From an uncultured Bacteroidaceae bacterium (GTDB taxonomy: Bacteria > Bacteroidota > Bacteroidia > Bacteroidales > Bacteroidaceae), in assembly GCA_905234605.1 (NCBI GenBank), contig CAJOIE010000003.1, forward strand, positions 62,001 to 126,000: 64,000 nt of DNA, written 5' to 3'. The notes beneath the pieces were generated by a model. It was not told the origin of the DNA. It ran no database searches and saw nothing but the letters and a program-made list of their open reading frames with translations. Positions 1,879 through 55,758 of the stretch are shown here, in pieces. The position numbers were made by a program, and so were the translations under genes. Position 1 is the stretch's first letter, and each line of letters opens with the position of its first letter.

Positions 1879-1984
1879 AGCCACACAGCTCCCTTGCAGG
1901 CAGAGAGCCCTCCGGACCCCACCACCGACACGGCAAGCACACAGCGTGTACACATTTATGCACACGCCGTGCGCCGGAGAACAC

Positions 1985-2064
1985 CATGCAGGGTGTAGCC
2001 ACGCACCCTGCACAGTGTGCAGCATGCACCATGCATGGTGTCAGCAAAGAGGGTGCAGGGTGTG
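1985..2064. repeat. ACCCTGCA-type intergenic palindromic repeat, locus 1
   Basis: TGCAGGGTGT, CACCCTGCA, the perfect palindrome CACCATGCATGGTG (2027-2040) and GGGTGCAGGGTGT clustered in one intergenic gap. Confidence 0.75.
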
Positions 2065-6039: not shown

Positions 6040-8157
6040 TCACTCCGGCACCTCCTCCCAGTGGAGCACAGCCCCGCCCCGACGTGCAGGGTCGGCACCG
6101 CGCCAGTCCATGCTGTAGGGGCTACCCGTGGTAGGACTCTTGCCCACATAGGTGTTGGTGCGCAGGCTCATCAGCATGAAGTCGTGGTGCAGATAGTCCT
6201 GAAAGAGGAAGAGTTCAGCCTTGTCCGCATCGTTGGTCAGACGCAGGTCGCCAGGCAAGCCGAAACCGGAGCACCACACGTAGCGGCCGTCAGCGCATTG
6301 CAGCACCACACGCCCTCCACCTCGGTCAATGAGACGGAAGTGTGTGCGCCGGTCGCGGCTGTCGGCATCGGTGTCGTAGACCAGTCCGTGCGGCAAGGCA
6401 TGCATCAGGCGCCCATTGGCCAGGTTGCTGATGCGTATGGTCTTCCCCACGGGCAGGTTGCCGCTGCGGTCAGCCTCAAGCTCCTCCACGGTGAAGTTGT
6501 CGAACAAGGCCTTGCCGCCCTCGTGCCCCTTCGTGTTGAAGGCAAAGAGGGCATGGCGTGAGCCCTGGAAGGTGATGAGCTGATAGCTCAGAGGCATGCG
6601 GCGGCCTATATCGGTGAATGTGCGCCCGTCGAGCGAGTAGCTGTATTGGGCCGAGTCCACATCGTAGGTGCCTGTCATGCGGAGCCAGATGCGTGCGTCC
6701 TTGCCCAGAACCACAGGCACTGCCACCGTGTCGTTGGTGGCCTGCTCAAAGCATCGCAACAGGTATGTCCCCGCGGTGCTACGGCTCTTGCCCGCCTCAA
6801 CGACAGGGCTCACGCCTATCCATGAGCAGGGCACGTTGATGTTGCCCAGCCCTGCTACATCGCCATCCTTGAGGGCGTTGGCATAGAGCTCCACGGTGGT
6901 GACGCTGGTGGGACCGACGACACGCTGTGTCAGTGAGTTGCGGGCCCACATCAGCTGCTCGGCAGGCATGGATGTGAGCTGCAGGCGGCCGCCCTTGAGA
7001 CGCCACTTGGCATCGTCGGGGTTGTGGTTCCACTGCCAGATGCGCGCCAGCTGCTTCCCATCGAAGCTGTCCGACCTACAATATGGGCCGTGAGGCTCTA
7101 CCGGAGCCTGCTCCGTGCTGCCCACATTGGGTTTGAACCATGTGCGCGGCGCACGTCCAAGGTTGCCCGGCAGACCGAGCATGGGCCAGCCGTCGACCCA
7201 CGTCATGGGAGCCAGTGTCACGGTACGCCCTATGCTGTGGAAATCCATCATCAGCAGTGCCCACCACTGGCCACTCTGGTCTTGCACGATGCCCCCCTGG
7301 TGAATGTTACTGCAAGCCGTGGCATCGCAGTCTGCCTCAGGTATGCCGAAACGGGAGCCGTCGGGCACGATGCGGCCACGCACCTGCGTCAGCGGTGCGG
7401 CATGGTAGCCAAAGGTCTCGTCGGCAGCCACGACGATGGTCTCGTAGGGGCCGTCTATCTTGTCGGCACGCGAGCACAGGGTGCGCCCGTTAGGCTTGTA
7501 GTCGGTGGATATGAGGTAGTATCGGCCGTCTATCTTGTACATGTGGTGCCCCTCGCCTACGGCCGAGCCGTTGGGGATAATCACCCTGTCAGTGCCTTCC
7601 ACGGGCCCGCTCATGTCGGCCTTTAGCTCTGTGCAGTGCACTTCGCCGTAACCGTGGATGGCATATATCTTGCCGTCATCGTCGAAGAGCACGCTGAGGT
7701 CGTAGATGCGCCCTTCCATGTTGTGGTGCTCCCACGGCCCCCGTATGTCCTTGGCAGTATAGCACTGCAAGCCCTTGCCGTTCACGTTGGAGTACACGTA
7801 GAACTGTCCATTGGCATAGCGTATGCACGGAGCCCAGATGCCCTGCCCGTATATCTCCTTATGGTTGACGAGTGAGAAGGCATCGTCCTGAAAGTCGAAA
7901 CGGTCGAAGCAGTAGCTGATGTTCTCCCAGTTGACGAGGTCGCGCGAATGGAGTATCACCAGTCCGGGCACGGTGTGCATTGTCGTGCCGGCAAGATAGT
8001 AGTCGTCGCCCACACGCAGAATGTCGGGGTCGGAGAACTCATCGTAGAAAAGCGGGTTGGTGAATGTGCCGTTGCCGTTGTCGGCAGTCCACGTGCGCGT
8101 CTGCGCCATGGCAGCCGTGGCAATCACAAGAAGCAGAGATAACAGTATGCGTCGCAT
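6040..8157 (-). CDS. Glycoside hydrolase family 43 (beta-xylosidase/arabinofuranosidase-like), secreted
   Basis: Signal peptide MRRILLSLLLVIATAAMAQ; NPLFYDEFSDPDILRVGDDYYLAGTTM GH43 N-terminus; IWAPCIRY, EGHHMYKIDGRYYL. Confidence 0.9.
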   Translation of the reverse strand: MRRILLSLLLVIATAAMAQTRTWTADNGNGTFTNPLFYDEFSDPDILRVGDDYYLAGTTMHTVPGLVILHSRDLVNWENISYCFDRFDFQDDAFSLVNHKEIYGQGIWAPCIRYANGQFYVYSNVNGKGLQCYTAKDIRGPWEHHNMEGRIYDLSVLFDDDGKIYAIHGYGEVHCTELKADMSGPVEGTDRVIIPNGSAVGEGHHMYKIDGRYYLISTDYKPNGRTLCSRADKIDGPYETIVVAADETFGYHAAPLTQVRGRIVPDGSRFGIPEADCDATACSNIHQGGIVQDQSGQWWALLMMDFHSIGRTVTLAPMTWVDGWPMLGLPGNLGRAPRTWFKPNVGSTEQAPVEPHGPYCRSDSFDGKQLARIWQWNHNPDDAKWRLKGGRLQLTSMPAEQLMWARNSLTQRVVGPTSVTTVELYANALKDGDVAGLGNINVPCSWIGVSPVVEAGKSRSTAGTYLLRCFEQATNDTVAVPVVLGKDARIWLRMTGTYDVDSAQYSYSLDGRTFTDIGRRMPLSYQLITFQGSRHALFAFNTKGHEGGKALFDNFTVEELEADRSGNLPVGKTIRISNLANGRLMHALPHGLVYDTDADSRDRRTHFRLIDRGGGRVVLQCADGRYVWCSGFGLPGDLRLTNDADKAELFLFQDYLHHDFMLMSLRTNTYVGKSPTTGSPYSMDWRGADPARRGGAVLHWEEVPE

Positions 8158-14881: not shown

Positions 14882-14891
14882 GCTGCCACAA

Positions 14892-14973
14892 ACACCCTGC
14901 ACCCCCAACACAAGGACCCTGCACCGCCGCTGTTGCGACCGTGCAGGGTTCTTGTGTTGGGGGTGCAGGGTGT
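14892..14973. repeat. ACCCTGCA-type intergenic palindromic repeat, locus 2 (33-bp stem hairpin)
   Basis: ACACCCTGCACCCCCAACACAAGGACCCTGCAC vs inverted copy GTGCAGGGTTCTTGTGTTGGGGGTGCAGGGTGT; 1 G:U position, 16-nt loop. Confidence 0.92.
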
Positions 14974-15036
14974 CACAGAGGCACCTGCTCATGCTTCCGG
15001 CGAGGGATGCGGCTGCGCCGCACACATGCCGGCAGC

Positions 15037-19963: not shown

Positions 19964-19997
19964 TGAATAACCACTGAACCACTGTTCAGCTTCACAA

Positions 19998-20412
19998 CCA
20001 CTATTCCTCTCCGGCCCCACTATCTCCCCTCTGAGCCGGCCTCACAATCACCCCCTCTCCGGCCCAACTTTCTCCCTTCTGAGCCAGCTTCACAATCATC
20101 CTTCCTCTCCGGCCCAACTATCTCTCCTATGAGCCGGCCTCACAATCATCCTTCCTCTCCGGCCCAACTATCTCCCCTCTGAGCCGGCCTCACAACCACC
20201 AGCCTCTCCGGCCCAACTTTCTCCCTTCTGAGCCAGCCTCACAACCACCCCCTCTACGGCCTCACTATCTCCCCTCTGAGCCGGCCTCACAACCACCAGC
20301 CTCTCCGGCCTCACTATCTCCCCTCTGAGCCAGCCTCACAACCATCCTTCCTCTCCGACCCCACTTTCTCCCTTCTGAGCCGGCTTCACAATCATCCGCC
20401 TCTCCGGAGGAA
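19998..20412. repeat. Minisatellite: about 8 tandem copies of a 48-50 bp unit
   Basis: Unit CCTCTCCGGCCCAACTATCTCCCCTCTGAGCCGGCCTCACAATCATCCTT; CTCCGG-equivalent positions at 20011, 20059, 20109, 20159, 20208, 20256, 20305, 20355, 20404. Confidence 0.93.
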
Positions 20413-20492: not shown

Positions 20493-20550
20493 TGATTAGG
20501 GCATAGCCTGATTAGGGCATAGCCTGTGATTAGGGCATAGCCTGTGATTA
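20493..20550. repeat. Short tandem repeat GATTAGGGCATAGCCT(GT), 3 full copies plus a partial
   Basis: GATTAGGGCATAGCCT-GATTAGGGCATAGCCTGT-GATTAGGGCATAGCCTGT-GATTAG. Confidence 0.9.
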
Positions 20551-20571
20551 GCACGACTTCGCAGCCAAGTC

Positions 20572-21870: not shown

Positions 21871-21916
21871 AGCTTGATGGTTTAAGGGGACAGAGGACCT
21901 TTCGCCTCCAATTGTT

Positions 21917-21976
21917 TCCTATCTATTCCTATACTCTCCTATAGTCTCCTCTTTACTCCTATACTCTCCTATTCCT
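21917..21976. repeat. Low-complexity TCCTATACTC/TCCTAT repeat tract between genes
   Basis: CCTATCTATTCCTATACTCTCCTATAGTCTCCTCTTTACTCCTATACTCTCCTATTCCTAC. Confidence 0.8.
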
Positions 21977-27303: not shown

Positions 27304-27819
27304 TTAGAAGGTGTAGTACACACCGAAGGTCAGAGCATTCTCGTTGGCATTGAGGGCGAAACGGTTAAGACCGTCGCGGTGCTGGTAGCCAAGATAGCCG
27401 AGCTGAGAGATGATGCTCACGTTGTCGCTGAGGTTGATAGCGACGCCTGGACGGAGGCCAACATGCCACACCGTTTCGGCATCCTCACCGCTGGGCTTGT
27501 GGCTGCCGATGCCGAAGCCGCCATCGACGAAGAAGCTGGCGATGCCCGACTTGAAGTAGGTGTAGCGGGCGAAAGGAGCGACGGTCATATCGGTGTAGTC
27601 GCCGGCTGCCTTGTTGGCAAGCTTCAAGCCGAGCTCAATGCCAAGGCTCAAGTTCTCATCGAGGTTGTAGCCTACCTGAGGAGCGATGTTGAAGGTGGTA
27701 CTGGCATCGCCAACCTTGGGCTCCTCGTAGTTGAAACCGAGGCCACCGCCAATCCATACCTGTGCGTTTGCTGTGAGAGAGGCCACTGCCATAGCGGCCA
27801 CAAGAAGCATCTTCTTCAT
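27304..27819 (-). CDS. Outer membrane beta-barrel protein (porin-family)
   Basis: MKKMLLVAAMAVASLTANAQ signal; GGGLGFNYEE..., ends ALTFGVYYTF (terminal Phe). Confidence 0.88.
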   Translation of the reverse strand: MKKMLLVAAMAVASLTANAQVWIGGGLGFNYEEPKVGDASTTFNIAPQVGYNLDENLSLGIELGLKLANKAAGDYTDMTVAPFARYTYFKSGIASFFVDGGFGIGSHKPSGEDAETVWHVGLRPGVAINLSDNVSIISQLGYLGYQHRDGLNRFALNANENALTFGVYYTF

Positions 27820-27902
27820 AATTGTTATCACTATTTTTACCATTCCTACTCTATTAAGGGTTTTCGGAGTCTCCCTTCGAGTGCTCTCTTCCGAAAGCGA
27901 TG

Positions 27903-30263: not shown

Positions 30264-30270
30264 CAGCCCG

Positions 30271-30373
30271 ACACCCTGCACCCTCTTACACAACACCCTG
30301 CACCCTCTTACGCAACACCCTGCACTCACTTTGCCATGTGGGTGCAGGGTGTCAGCGCAAGAGGGTGCAGGGG
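30271..30373. repeat. ACCCTGCA-type intergenic repeat, locus 3 (3 direct copies at 22-nt period plus 2 inverted copies)
   Basis: ACACCCTGCACCCTCTTACACA / ACACCCTGCACCCTCTTACGCA / ACACCCTGCACTCA..., then GGGTGCAGGGTGTCAGCGCAAGAGGGTGCAGGGG. Confidence 0.92.
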
Positions 30374-30443
30374 TATGGAGCGATGCCTGCCAGGCGGCCG
30401 CTCTCTCCCTACATGGAGGGCAGGTAGAGGGTCCGCCGCCTTA

Positions 30444-36017: not shown

Positions 36018-36064
36018 GGAGCCGAGGACTTTGCTTGCAATGGTATTATAAAGCGACAGCAAGT

Positions 36065-36200
36065 AACACACAAGCAGGGTGCGCCCTCTGTTGGGCGCAC
36101 CCTGCTTGTGTGTTGGCAAGACCCTGCATGGTGATGCCCATCACGGTGCAGGGTCTATGACGACTCCATGCAGGGTGATGGGCATTGACCATGCAGGGTG
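36065..36200. repeat. ACCCTGCA-type intergenic palindromic repeat, locus 4 (22-bp perfect stem plus further hairpin/direct copies)
   Basis: AACACACAAGCAGGGTGCGCCC/GGGCGCACCCTGCTTGTGTGTT (36065-36114); GACCCTGCATGGTGATGCCCATCACGGTGCAGGGTC (36120-36155); CCATGCAGGGTG twice. Confidence 0.92.
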
Positions 36201-36268
36201 TTTCGGGCTTGGATGACGGGCGCGATGACGAGGTATGCAGGCGGATAACGGCCTGCATGCGTGCTGCC

Positions 36269-47294: not shown

Positions 47295-47378
47295 ACACCC
47301 TGCACCCTCATCGCAAACACAGTGCAGGGTAGGCACACCACACCCTGCACCCACATCGCCGTCACCATGCAGGCTGAT
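47295..47378. repeat. ACCCTGCA-type intergenic repeat, locus 5
   Basis: ACACCCTGCACCCTCATCGC...GTGCAGGGTAGGCACACCACACCCTGCACCCACATCGCC...CATGCAGGCTGATGC. Confidence 0.85.
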
Positions 47379-47562: not shown

Positions 47563-47647
47563 CGGAGAGAGAGGGATTCGAACCCCCGGTGCCTTGCGGC
47601 ACGGCGGTTTTCAAGACCGCTGTAATCGACCACTCTACCATCTCTCC
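47563..47647 (-). tRNA. tRNA-Ser (anticodon TGA)
   Basis: GGAGAGATGGTAGAGTGGTCGATTACAGCGGTCTTGAAAACCGC + class II variable arm GTGCCGCAAGGCAC + GGGGGTTCGAATCCC + TCTCTCC G; CCA not fully encoded. Confidence 0.95.
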
Positions 47648-49002: not shown

Positions 49003-51813
49003 ATGAGCGATAACCATCAGCAGAACATTCCACACTCCCCCGCCGAAGGGGAGCGGGGAGGAGGACTTCCTCCCAAGTACTCCCCCTCTGAGGTCGAAGG
49101 CAAGTGGTACCAGTACTGGCTGGACCACCACATGTTCGCCTCCAAGCCCGACAGCCGCGAGCCCTACACCATAGTGATACCGCCACCCAACGTGACAGGC
49201 GTGCTCCACATGGGCCACGTGCTCAACGAAACCATTCAGGACATACTCGTGCGCCACGCCCGCATGGAGGGCAAGAACGCCTGCTGGGTGCCCGGCACCG
49301 ACCACGCCTCCATCGCCACCGAGGCCAAGGTGGTGAACCGTCTGGCAGAACAGGGAATAAAGAAAACCGACCTCACCCGCGAGGAGTTCCTCCGCCACGC
49401 CTGGGCATGGACAGAGGAGCACGGAGGCATCATACTCAAGCAGCTGCGCCGCCTGGGATGCTCATGCGACTGGGACCGCACGGCATTCACCATGGACGAC
49501 GTGCGCTCCGAGAGCGTCATCAAGGTGTTTGTCGACCTCTACCGCAAGGGACTCATCTACCGTGGCGTGCGCATGGTGAACTGGGATCCCAAGGCCCTCA
49601 CAGCCCTCTCCGATGAAGAGGTAATATATAAGGAAGAGCACACCAAGCTCTACTACATGAAATACTACGTGGCCGCGAGCACGCCCGTCGGTCAGTCCGA
49701 CATCGCAGCCTCAGTGCCAGGCACCGACACGGAATGCGCCAACGTCGTGCACCACGACGAGCGCGGCTACTATGCCGTCGTGGCCACCACCCGCCCCGAG
49801 ACCATCATGGGCGACGTGGCCATGTGCATCAACCCTGCCGACCCCAAGAACCAGTGGCTCAAGGGCAAGCACGTCATCGTGCCGCTCGTGGGACGCGAGA
49901 TACCCGTCATCGAAGACGACTACGTGGACATCGACTTCGGCACGGGTTGCCTCAAAGTGACGCCTGCCCACGATGTCAACGACTACATGCTGGGCGAGAA
50001 ATACAACCTGCGTGCCATCGACATCTTCAACGACAACGCCACACTGAGCGACCGCATCCTGTGCGACACCGGCGACCTTGCCAAGTATGTGGGCATGGAC
50101 CGCTTCGACTGCCGACGCCAGATAGCCCAGGACATGGTGGAGGCCGGACTCATGGAGCATATCGACGACTACGACAACAAGATCGGATGCTCGGAACGCA
50201 CCGGCGTGCCCATAGAGCCCAAGCTGTCGATGCAGTGGTTCCTGCGCATGGAACACCTGGCCGACATCGCACTGAAACCCGTCATGGACGACGACATCCA
50301 GTTCTACCCCGCAAAATACAAGAACACCTACCGCCACTGGCTTGAGAACATCAAGGACTGGTGCATATCGCGCCAGCTGTGGTGGGGGCACCGCATCCCG
50401 GCATGGTATCTGCCATCGGGCGGATACATCGTTGCCGAGACTGCCGACGAGGCACTGCGCCTCGCACGCCAGCAAAGCAGCAATCAAGAGCTGCAGATGG
50501 CCGACCTCCGTCAGGACGAAGATGCCCTCGACACATGGTTCTCATCGTGGCTGTGGCCCATAAGCCTCTTCGACGGCATACGCCACCCTGGCAATGCCGA
50601 GCTCTCCTACTACTACCCCACGGCCGACCTTGTGACAGGACCCGACATCATCTTCTTCTGGGTGGCACGCATGATTATGGCAGGCTACGAGTATGAAGGC
50701 AAGATGCCCTTCCGTCATGTCTACTTCACAGGCATCGTCCGCGACAAGCTCGGGCGCAAGATGAGCAAGAGCCTCGGCAACAGTCCCGACCCCCTCGACC
50801 TCATAGACCGCTTCGGTGCCGACGGTGTGCGCATGGGCATGATGCTCAGTGCCCCCGCAGGCAACGACATACTCTTCGACGAGAGCCTGTGCGAACAGGG
50901 CCGCAACTTCAACAACAAGATATGGAATGCCTTCCGCCTTGTGAAAGGGTGGGAGGTGGCAGACAGCACACAGCCTGAAGCTGCCCTGTTAGCTACCAAC
51001 TGGTTTGCCGCCAAGCTGCGGCTCGCCGCCGAGGAACTTGCCGACGACTTCTCCAAGTATCGGCTCTCTGAGGCACTGATGACTGTCTACCGCCTCTTCT
51101 GGGACGAGTTCTCATCGTGGTACCTGGAGATGGTGAAGCCTGCCTACGTTGACGGCCAGCCCCAGCCTGTGGACCGTGCCACCTACGACAGTACGCTCCA
51201 GTTCTTCGAGGTGCTGCTGAAGATGCTCCACCCCTTCATGCCCTTCATCACCGAAGAGCTGTGGCAGGCACTCTGCGACCGCCAGCCCGGCGACAGCATC
51301 ATGCGTTCCGAGCTGCACATTGCCACACCCGAGGAGAGCGACCGCACGCTCTGTGCCGCCGTGGACGTACTGAAGGAGATAGTAACCAGCGTGCGTGCCG
51401 TGCGCTCACAGAAGAACATCGCTCCCAAGGAGAAGCTGGTGCTCGAAATGGTGGATGCCGCCGCCCAACAGCCACTGCCTCAGGGCGGTGCAGATGCCCT
51501 CATGAAGATGGCCAACCTCTCTGCTGTCAATGCCGTGGCAGAGAAGAGCAAGGGCAGTGCCAGCTTCCTCATCGGCACCAGCGAGTACGCCGTGCCCCTC
51601 GGCGACCTCATCGACACCGAGGCCGAGCGCAAGAAGCTCGAGGCTGAGCTGCAACGCATAGAGGGTTTCCTTGCAAGCATCGAGAAGAAGCTTGCCAACG
51701 AGCGCTTCGTGCAGAACGCCCCTGCCGCCGTGGTCGAGATGGAGCGCAAGAAGCAGGCCGATGCGCAGCAGAAGATTGCCTCCATACGCGAAACCATCAA
51801 GCAGCTGGGCTGA
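49003..51813 (+). CDS. valS: Valine--tRNA ligase
   Basis: [14 protein letters not shown] (HIGH), [30 protein letters not shown]-terminal coiled coil. Confidence 0.97.
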
Positions 51814-51874
51814 CACCTACTTATATATTAGGCTGACACCTATTATATATAATAACGCCCACGGCTGAACCCGC

Positions 51875-55671: not shown

Positions 55672-55758
55672 GCAGACCCTGCACCCTCAGCGCCACGAGG
55701 GTGCAGGGTCTGCATTTTCACTGTGCAGGGTGACAGGCCCACACCCTGCACGGTGTCA
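55672..55758. repeat. ACCCTGCA-type intergenic palindromic repeat, locus 6
   Basis: GCAGACCCTGCACCCTC agcgccac GAGGGTGCAGGGTCTGC then ATTTT; second hairpin GTGCAGGGTG...CACCCTGCAC (55723-55751). Confidence 0.92.

Follow-up and report, generated by a model that had tools for sequence, protein, structure and literature searches.

The window analysed here, a 64,000-nucleotide stretch of the genome of an uncultured Bacteroidaceae bacterium, carries a short word, ACCCTGCAC, at six intergenic loci, all of which lie where the original prediction placed them (Table 1). The window holds 19 copies of the word where 1.41 would be expected, and none of 100 shuffled sequences contained as many. It is enriched genome-wide as well, with 380 copies in 2.36 Mb compared to 26 of the reversed control word; a longer version, ACCCTGCAYGGTG, is present in 154 copies and its control in none. 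A single one of the 19 window words falls within a called gene (6084-6092), in agreement with the earlier impression that no cluster lies inside a coding sequence, and the placing of copies in four convergent gaps holds if the minus-strand tRNA at 47563-47647 is counted. Word counts and gap occupancy (see below) thus bear out a non-chance repeated intergenic family that is biased to 3' ends and convergent gaps.

Table 1. Arrays and the adjoining hairpin in the window, with site orientations and centre-to-centre spacings in the order of the forward strand.
Feature	Positions	Site orientations	Spacings (bp)	Setting and remarks
Four-site array	1983..2061	- + + -	22, 23, 22	Co-directional gap
Four-site array	14894..14971	+ + - -	22, 22, 22	Convergent gap 14882-15036; copy with the ~33-bp stem; spacer pairing z ~-5
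Five-site array	30273..30373	+ + + - -	22, 22, 22, 23	Convergent gap 30264-30443
Four-site array	36121..36199	+ - - -	22, 22, 23	Convergent gap 36018-36268
Four-site array	47297..47375	+ - + -	22, 23, 22	Between histidine-kinase-like gene and minus-strand tRNA
Four-site array	55676..55754	+ - - +	22, 22, 23	Between recG and tRNA
Long perfect hairpin (AACACACAAGCAGGGTGCGCCC...)	36065..36117			Adjoins array 36121..36199; distinct from the array

The family had been described as one of hairpins. It is real, but its words turn out to be the sites of larger arrays rather than the arms of two-armed hairpins. A typical array is made up of four near-palindromic sites (CACCnTGCAnGGTG), each centred 22-23 bp from the next in either orientation. 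When separations were measured between TGCA centres in contig C1 (400 kb) plus the window, words with centres no more than 160 bp apart were separated by 22-23, 44-46, 66-68 or 91 bp and by no other distance, whatever their orientation. A weight-matrix search of the same 464 kb returned 39 arrays, compared to none in shuffled sequence, which corresponds to about 200 arrays per genome. Four sites are found in 24 of the 39 arrays, five in 6, three in 3, two in 4, and six and seven in one array each. Strong sites are nearly confined to arrays, with 55/55 of those scoring at least 20 bits and 86/88 of those scoring at least 18 bits located there.

The sites are 12-14 bp long, share the core ACCnTGCAnGGT, and have a mean centre spacing of 22.4 bp, or about two helical turns. 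The two bases flanking TGCA seldom match each other and perfect palindromes are avoided (8/134 sites vs about 37 expected); within an array, the outer sites are stronger than the inner ones. The intervening spacers of 10-11 bp are unrelated in sequence from array to array, and their middle is symmetric, with G/C steps marking the centre and A/T steps the positions about +-3. Neighbouring spacers of one array are slightly similar (0.50 vs 0.43), and some arrays, such as C1:295867-296010, are homogeneous tandem repeats.

With respect to genes, which were called approximately by a simple gene finder, an array is present in 58% of the convergent gaps that measure 100 bp or more (11 of 19), compared to 20% of the co-directional (16 of 81) and 20% of the divergent ones (6 of about 30). 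The majority of arrays in co-directional gaps are closer to the 3' end of the upstream gene, and five arrays lie inside called genes, two of these having just two sites. The arrays are also evenly spread. The median interval is 10.9 kb, or roughly one array per 11 kb, and short intervals are depleted, with 1 of 96 below 5.5 kb where about 34 would be expected. The 37 intervals measured in C1 plus the window all reach 5 kb or more, whereas random choice of intergenic gaps would put 13 below that length (P<1/5000). In contigs C2-C7, whose positions were compiled from word listings complete only to C2:194633, one interval in 64 is shorter than 5.5 kb, and 22 would be expected (P=5e-11); omissions could merely lengthen intervals, and the expectation, derived from the same mean, is hence lowered as well. 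The one short interval is due to a lone word at C2:99798; this word excepted, the minimum spacing of arrays is about 5.7 kb. A stretch of about 90 kb in C1 (~29-121 kb) contains two-site arrays only, and we rejected a recent island as its explanation since it holds the core genes LysRS, PGI and FTHFS.

The inverted pair of the own word is absent from all 36 of 36 genomes of the same genus. When the intergenic DNA of four relatives (G003, G015, G017 and G011) is compared with itself, distances nevertheless peak sharply at 22 bp, and the arrays of relatives are built from other words: CACGTGCGGACGTG in G017, TACGACCGGTCGTA in G015, CGTGAAGGGC-linked words in G003, AAAGGTTAACCATTA in G011 and ATTCGTGAATTC in G004, with counts for G017 and G078 not firm because the sequence samples were small. 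In G011, eight of ten arrays are four-site and all spacings are exactly 22 bp. A survey of 61 genomes found the GGTTAACC pair 105 times in G011, 113 times in G023, mostly in four-site arrays, and 0 times in the 59 others; between syntenic arrays of these two genomes, differences amount to 4/72 in the word flanks vs 14/96 in the spacer centres. Even spacing is weaker in the relatives (P=0.002 for G011 C17 and P=0.009 for G003 C5) and not significant for the five arrays of G015, and intervals go down to 2.1-2.4 kb on contig C1 of G011.

Array positions turn over, as judged from three orthologous gaps compared with G003, in each of which one species of the two has the array; in one of these gaps, G003 has an ordinary hairpin in place of the array. 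Downstream of recG, G017 has a 22-bp array, as does the own genome. Given that the three other orthologous gaps are unshared, this match may be chance, and we did not retain the idea that arrays are conserved at orthologous places; further flanking-gene searches found no conserved synteny around arrays. In a genome of another family (G054, L278), a 23-bp unit, CTCACAAGTTTGTCAGTTTTTAC, forms two arrays within 20 kb, which suggests that the phenomenon extends past the genus. G015 has a further word, about GCCTTGCATGCAGATTAGGTTG, in 22-bp repeats at two places (L193 and L195), and a single genome can therefore carry more than one word family. As for the own word elsewhere, it has 74 scattered matches in named genomes, where the roughly 15 viewed in context resemble ordinary single hairpins, several of them T-tailed, and 10 matches in viral contigs, where those viewed in context are other repeats and not four-site 22-bp arrays. 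In several unrelated viral contigs (L303, L304, L307-L309 and L311), ACCCTGCAC is densely repeated, often at intervals of 9-12 bp; these repeats look like replication iterons and not like members of the own array family. We found no account of such arrays in the open-access literature.

We considered how such arrays might arise and what they might do. If they acted as RNA hairpins, either intrinsic terminators or 3'-end stabilisers, the bias to 3' ends and convergent gaps would be accounted for, as would the long stems of some copies (14894-14971 and 36121-36199) and the hairpin that replaces an array in the G003 gap. The stem originally reported at 14892-14973 is indeed about 33 bp long, with one G-T pair. 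It is nevertheless exceptional, since arrays do not in general have pairing spacers: a comparison of fold energies with those of spacer-swapped arrays revealed no general excess, and spacers pair no better within their own array than after swapping (mean z -0.18, 64 folds). The exceptions are the window arrays at 14894 and 36121 (z about -4 to -5) and C1 383027, and the presence of the first two among the few arrays with strong spacer pairing explains the initial impression of a hairpin family. Selection on structure, as the original prediction had it, finds no support in these results, nor in the avoidance of perfect palindromes or the frequency of T-tracts after arrays, which is at background (20% vs 18%), so that a stable hairpin followed by a T-tract, as expected of an intrinsic terminator, is seen in single cases only. 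An RNA role, which would also leave the even spacing unexplained and has to contend with arrays in 6 of the 30-31 divergent gaps, appears improbable to us. The long hairpin at 36065-36117, by its sequence, is probably an ordinary bidirectional terminator. The alternative origin first proposed, a REP mobilised by a RAYT, draws on a genuine likeness, in that REP/BIME elements are species-specific intergenic palindromic repeats for which 3' ends and convergent gaps are frequent locations (PMC3733652), and the arrays are likewise species-specific, near-palindromic, intergenic and biased to such places. REP/BIME elements, however, are tagged palindromes of 20-40 bp, whereas here we find 22-23-bp phased arrays with spacing far more even than chance and no Y1_Tnp gene: PF01797 (Y1_Tnp) has no match in the own genome, which is 87% complete, and matches 5/14 control genomes. 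CGTC-type REPs do not require a RAYT gene in the genome. Wide copying of one transposed unit is not borne out by the spacers and flanks, which are unrelated between arrays; 70 array flanks of 150 bp gave only 5 short weak matches at E<=0.01. Unrelated flanks also led us to reject a MITE with leader and tail of the type of BrickBuilt, the intergenic minisatellite/MITE of Porphyromonas gingivalis whose tandem repeat is 23 nt long (PMC4596501). BrickBuilt is present in about 19 copies, and its leader and tail, with their terminal inverted repeats, are conserved, in contrast to the roughly 200 evenly spaced arrays of near-palindromic sites with their four-site mode. A system akin to a transposon or integrase, with several ~22-bp binding sites at its ends and a target immunity that spaces copies by kilobases, would give the observed minimum spacing of about 5.7 kb (one lone word aside), and four 22-bp sites recall the ends of Tn7 and Mu, as a lead only. 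Such an origin is nonetheless very unlikely, since unrelated flanks and spacers mean that no single element has been copied to give the arrays, and since there is no Y1_Tnp gene; PF09299 (Mu-transpos_C) has no match in the own genome, and none in the control genomes either. We give equally little credence to the idea of selectively neutral repeats, minisatellite or REP-like, surviving where gaps are permissive. The homogeneous tandem arrays and the similarity of adjacent spacers would suit such repeats, but the spacing statistics already disfavour them, as do the four-site mode of two species whose words differ and the single word common to arrays whose spacers are unrelated.

The main rival to the explanation that we prefer is that the arrays are species-specific DNA uptake tags, or "dialects", which a competence receptor reads and which build up through biased uptake (molecular drive). 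Such drive would give even spacing, gene avoidance, turnover of positions and a word for each species, all of which are observed. The known uptake sequences, DUS in Neisseriaceae and USS in Pasteurellaceae, are likewise short species-specific dialect words with a fairly even spread, rare in coding sequence and present as inverted pairs at gene ends, for which drive alone can suffice (PMC3630211, PMC7811141). In other words, the arrays have the over-represented, evenly spread, species-specific word of an uptake sequence. They differ in that DUS and USS consist for the most part of single words, about 1 per kb, which is ten times the density of about one array per 11 kb found here, where lone strong sites are nearly absent (2/88) and the unit is four phased sites. 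We regard uptake tags as an unlikely explanation, though one to be taken seriously.

A word shared by arrays with unrelated spacers, a constant phase and number of sites, and an even distribution argue for recognition of the DNA by an oligomeric protein. We suggest, as a tentative preference held with somewhat less than even confidence, that the loci are species-specific docking arrays for a putative oligomeric DNA-binding protein with a chromosome-wide role. Each locus would dock one oligomer at the DNA level, with four dimeric DNA-binding units occupying the four sites side by side and about 90 bp of DNA wrapped or looped. Some 200 such complexes, spaced ~11 kb from one another and placed mostly in convergent gaps and at the 3' ends of genes, could serve as chromosome-wide anchors, for example as barriers at the borders of ~10-kb supercoil domains. 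The recognised word would shift from species to species while the geometry of the oligomer (22-23 bp, four sites) was retained. Published estimates for topological barriers in E. coli range from one per 10 to one per 100 kb, and an array spacing of about 11 kb would fit the lower of these (PMC9071471). With modest confidence, we favour domain organisation over uptake tags. Of the explanations offered originally, a binding site for a nucleoid protein comes nearest to this, whereas the REP and terminator proposals are mostly unsupported. Several observations count against docking: word turnover is unexpected if the reader is a core architectural protein, and even spacing is weaker in relatives, positions turn over, a few arrays have pairing spacers, and C1 ~29-121 kb has two-site arrays only.

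Four dimeric sites two turns apart resemble the DNA wrapped on an Lrp/AsnC octamer, since Lrp-type proteins contact semi-palindromic sites with one dimer each and wrap DNA on an octamer (PMC10201364). The four phased palindromic sites of an Lrp/AsnC operator are found in the 24 of 39 arrays that have exactly four, 22-23 bp apart. The own genome has one AsnC-domain gene. Word turnover would, however, need turnover of the recognition helix of such a protein. The systems matS/MatP, SBS/SlmA, NBS/Noc and parS/ParB also pair dispersed near-palindromic sites with a dimeric reader, but their sites are mainly single, conserved among relatives and regionally confined, in contrast to evenly spread four-site arrays with species-specific words. 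We may be dealing, and here we are a shade more guarded, with an undescribed chromosome-marking system, in which each species has its own word in quantised four-site, 22-bp-phased arrays every ~11 kb and a putative, fast-evolving oligomeric reader sets domains or identifies self DNA.

Either possibility has implications beyond this genome. Bacterial chromosomes are thought to be split into topological domains of about 10 to 100 kb, and regular boundary markers encoded in the sequence would allow this to be tested directly. If the arrays are uptake tags, they would constitute a multi-site class of self-recognition sequence; we know of no self-recognition uptake sequence described in this group. 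Under both readings, about 800 sites in each genome have turned over among species of the same genus while their geometry was retained, which would provide a clean case of co-evolution between a protein and its sites.

The window and its surroundings hold several other repeated or structured elements. A 50-bp tandem repeat of about 8.4 copies occupies intergenic DNA at 19992-20407 and is followed by an 18-bp repeat at 20493-20551, and shorter tandem repeats with units of 30 bp and 23 bp lie at 21906-21972 and 51808-51850, respectively. Another word, TATAGGAACTAT, is over-represented too in C1 plus the window (10 copies). At 27843-27877, immediately 5' of the minus-strand gene 27304-27843, a DUF805b RNA motif scores above the Rfam gathering threshold.
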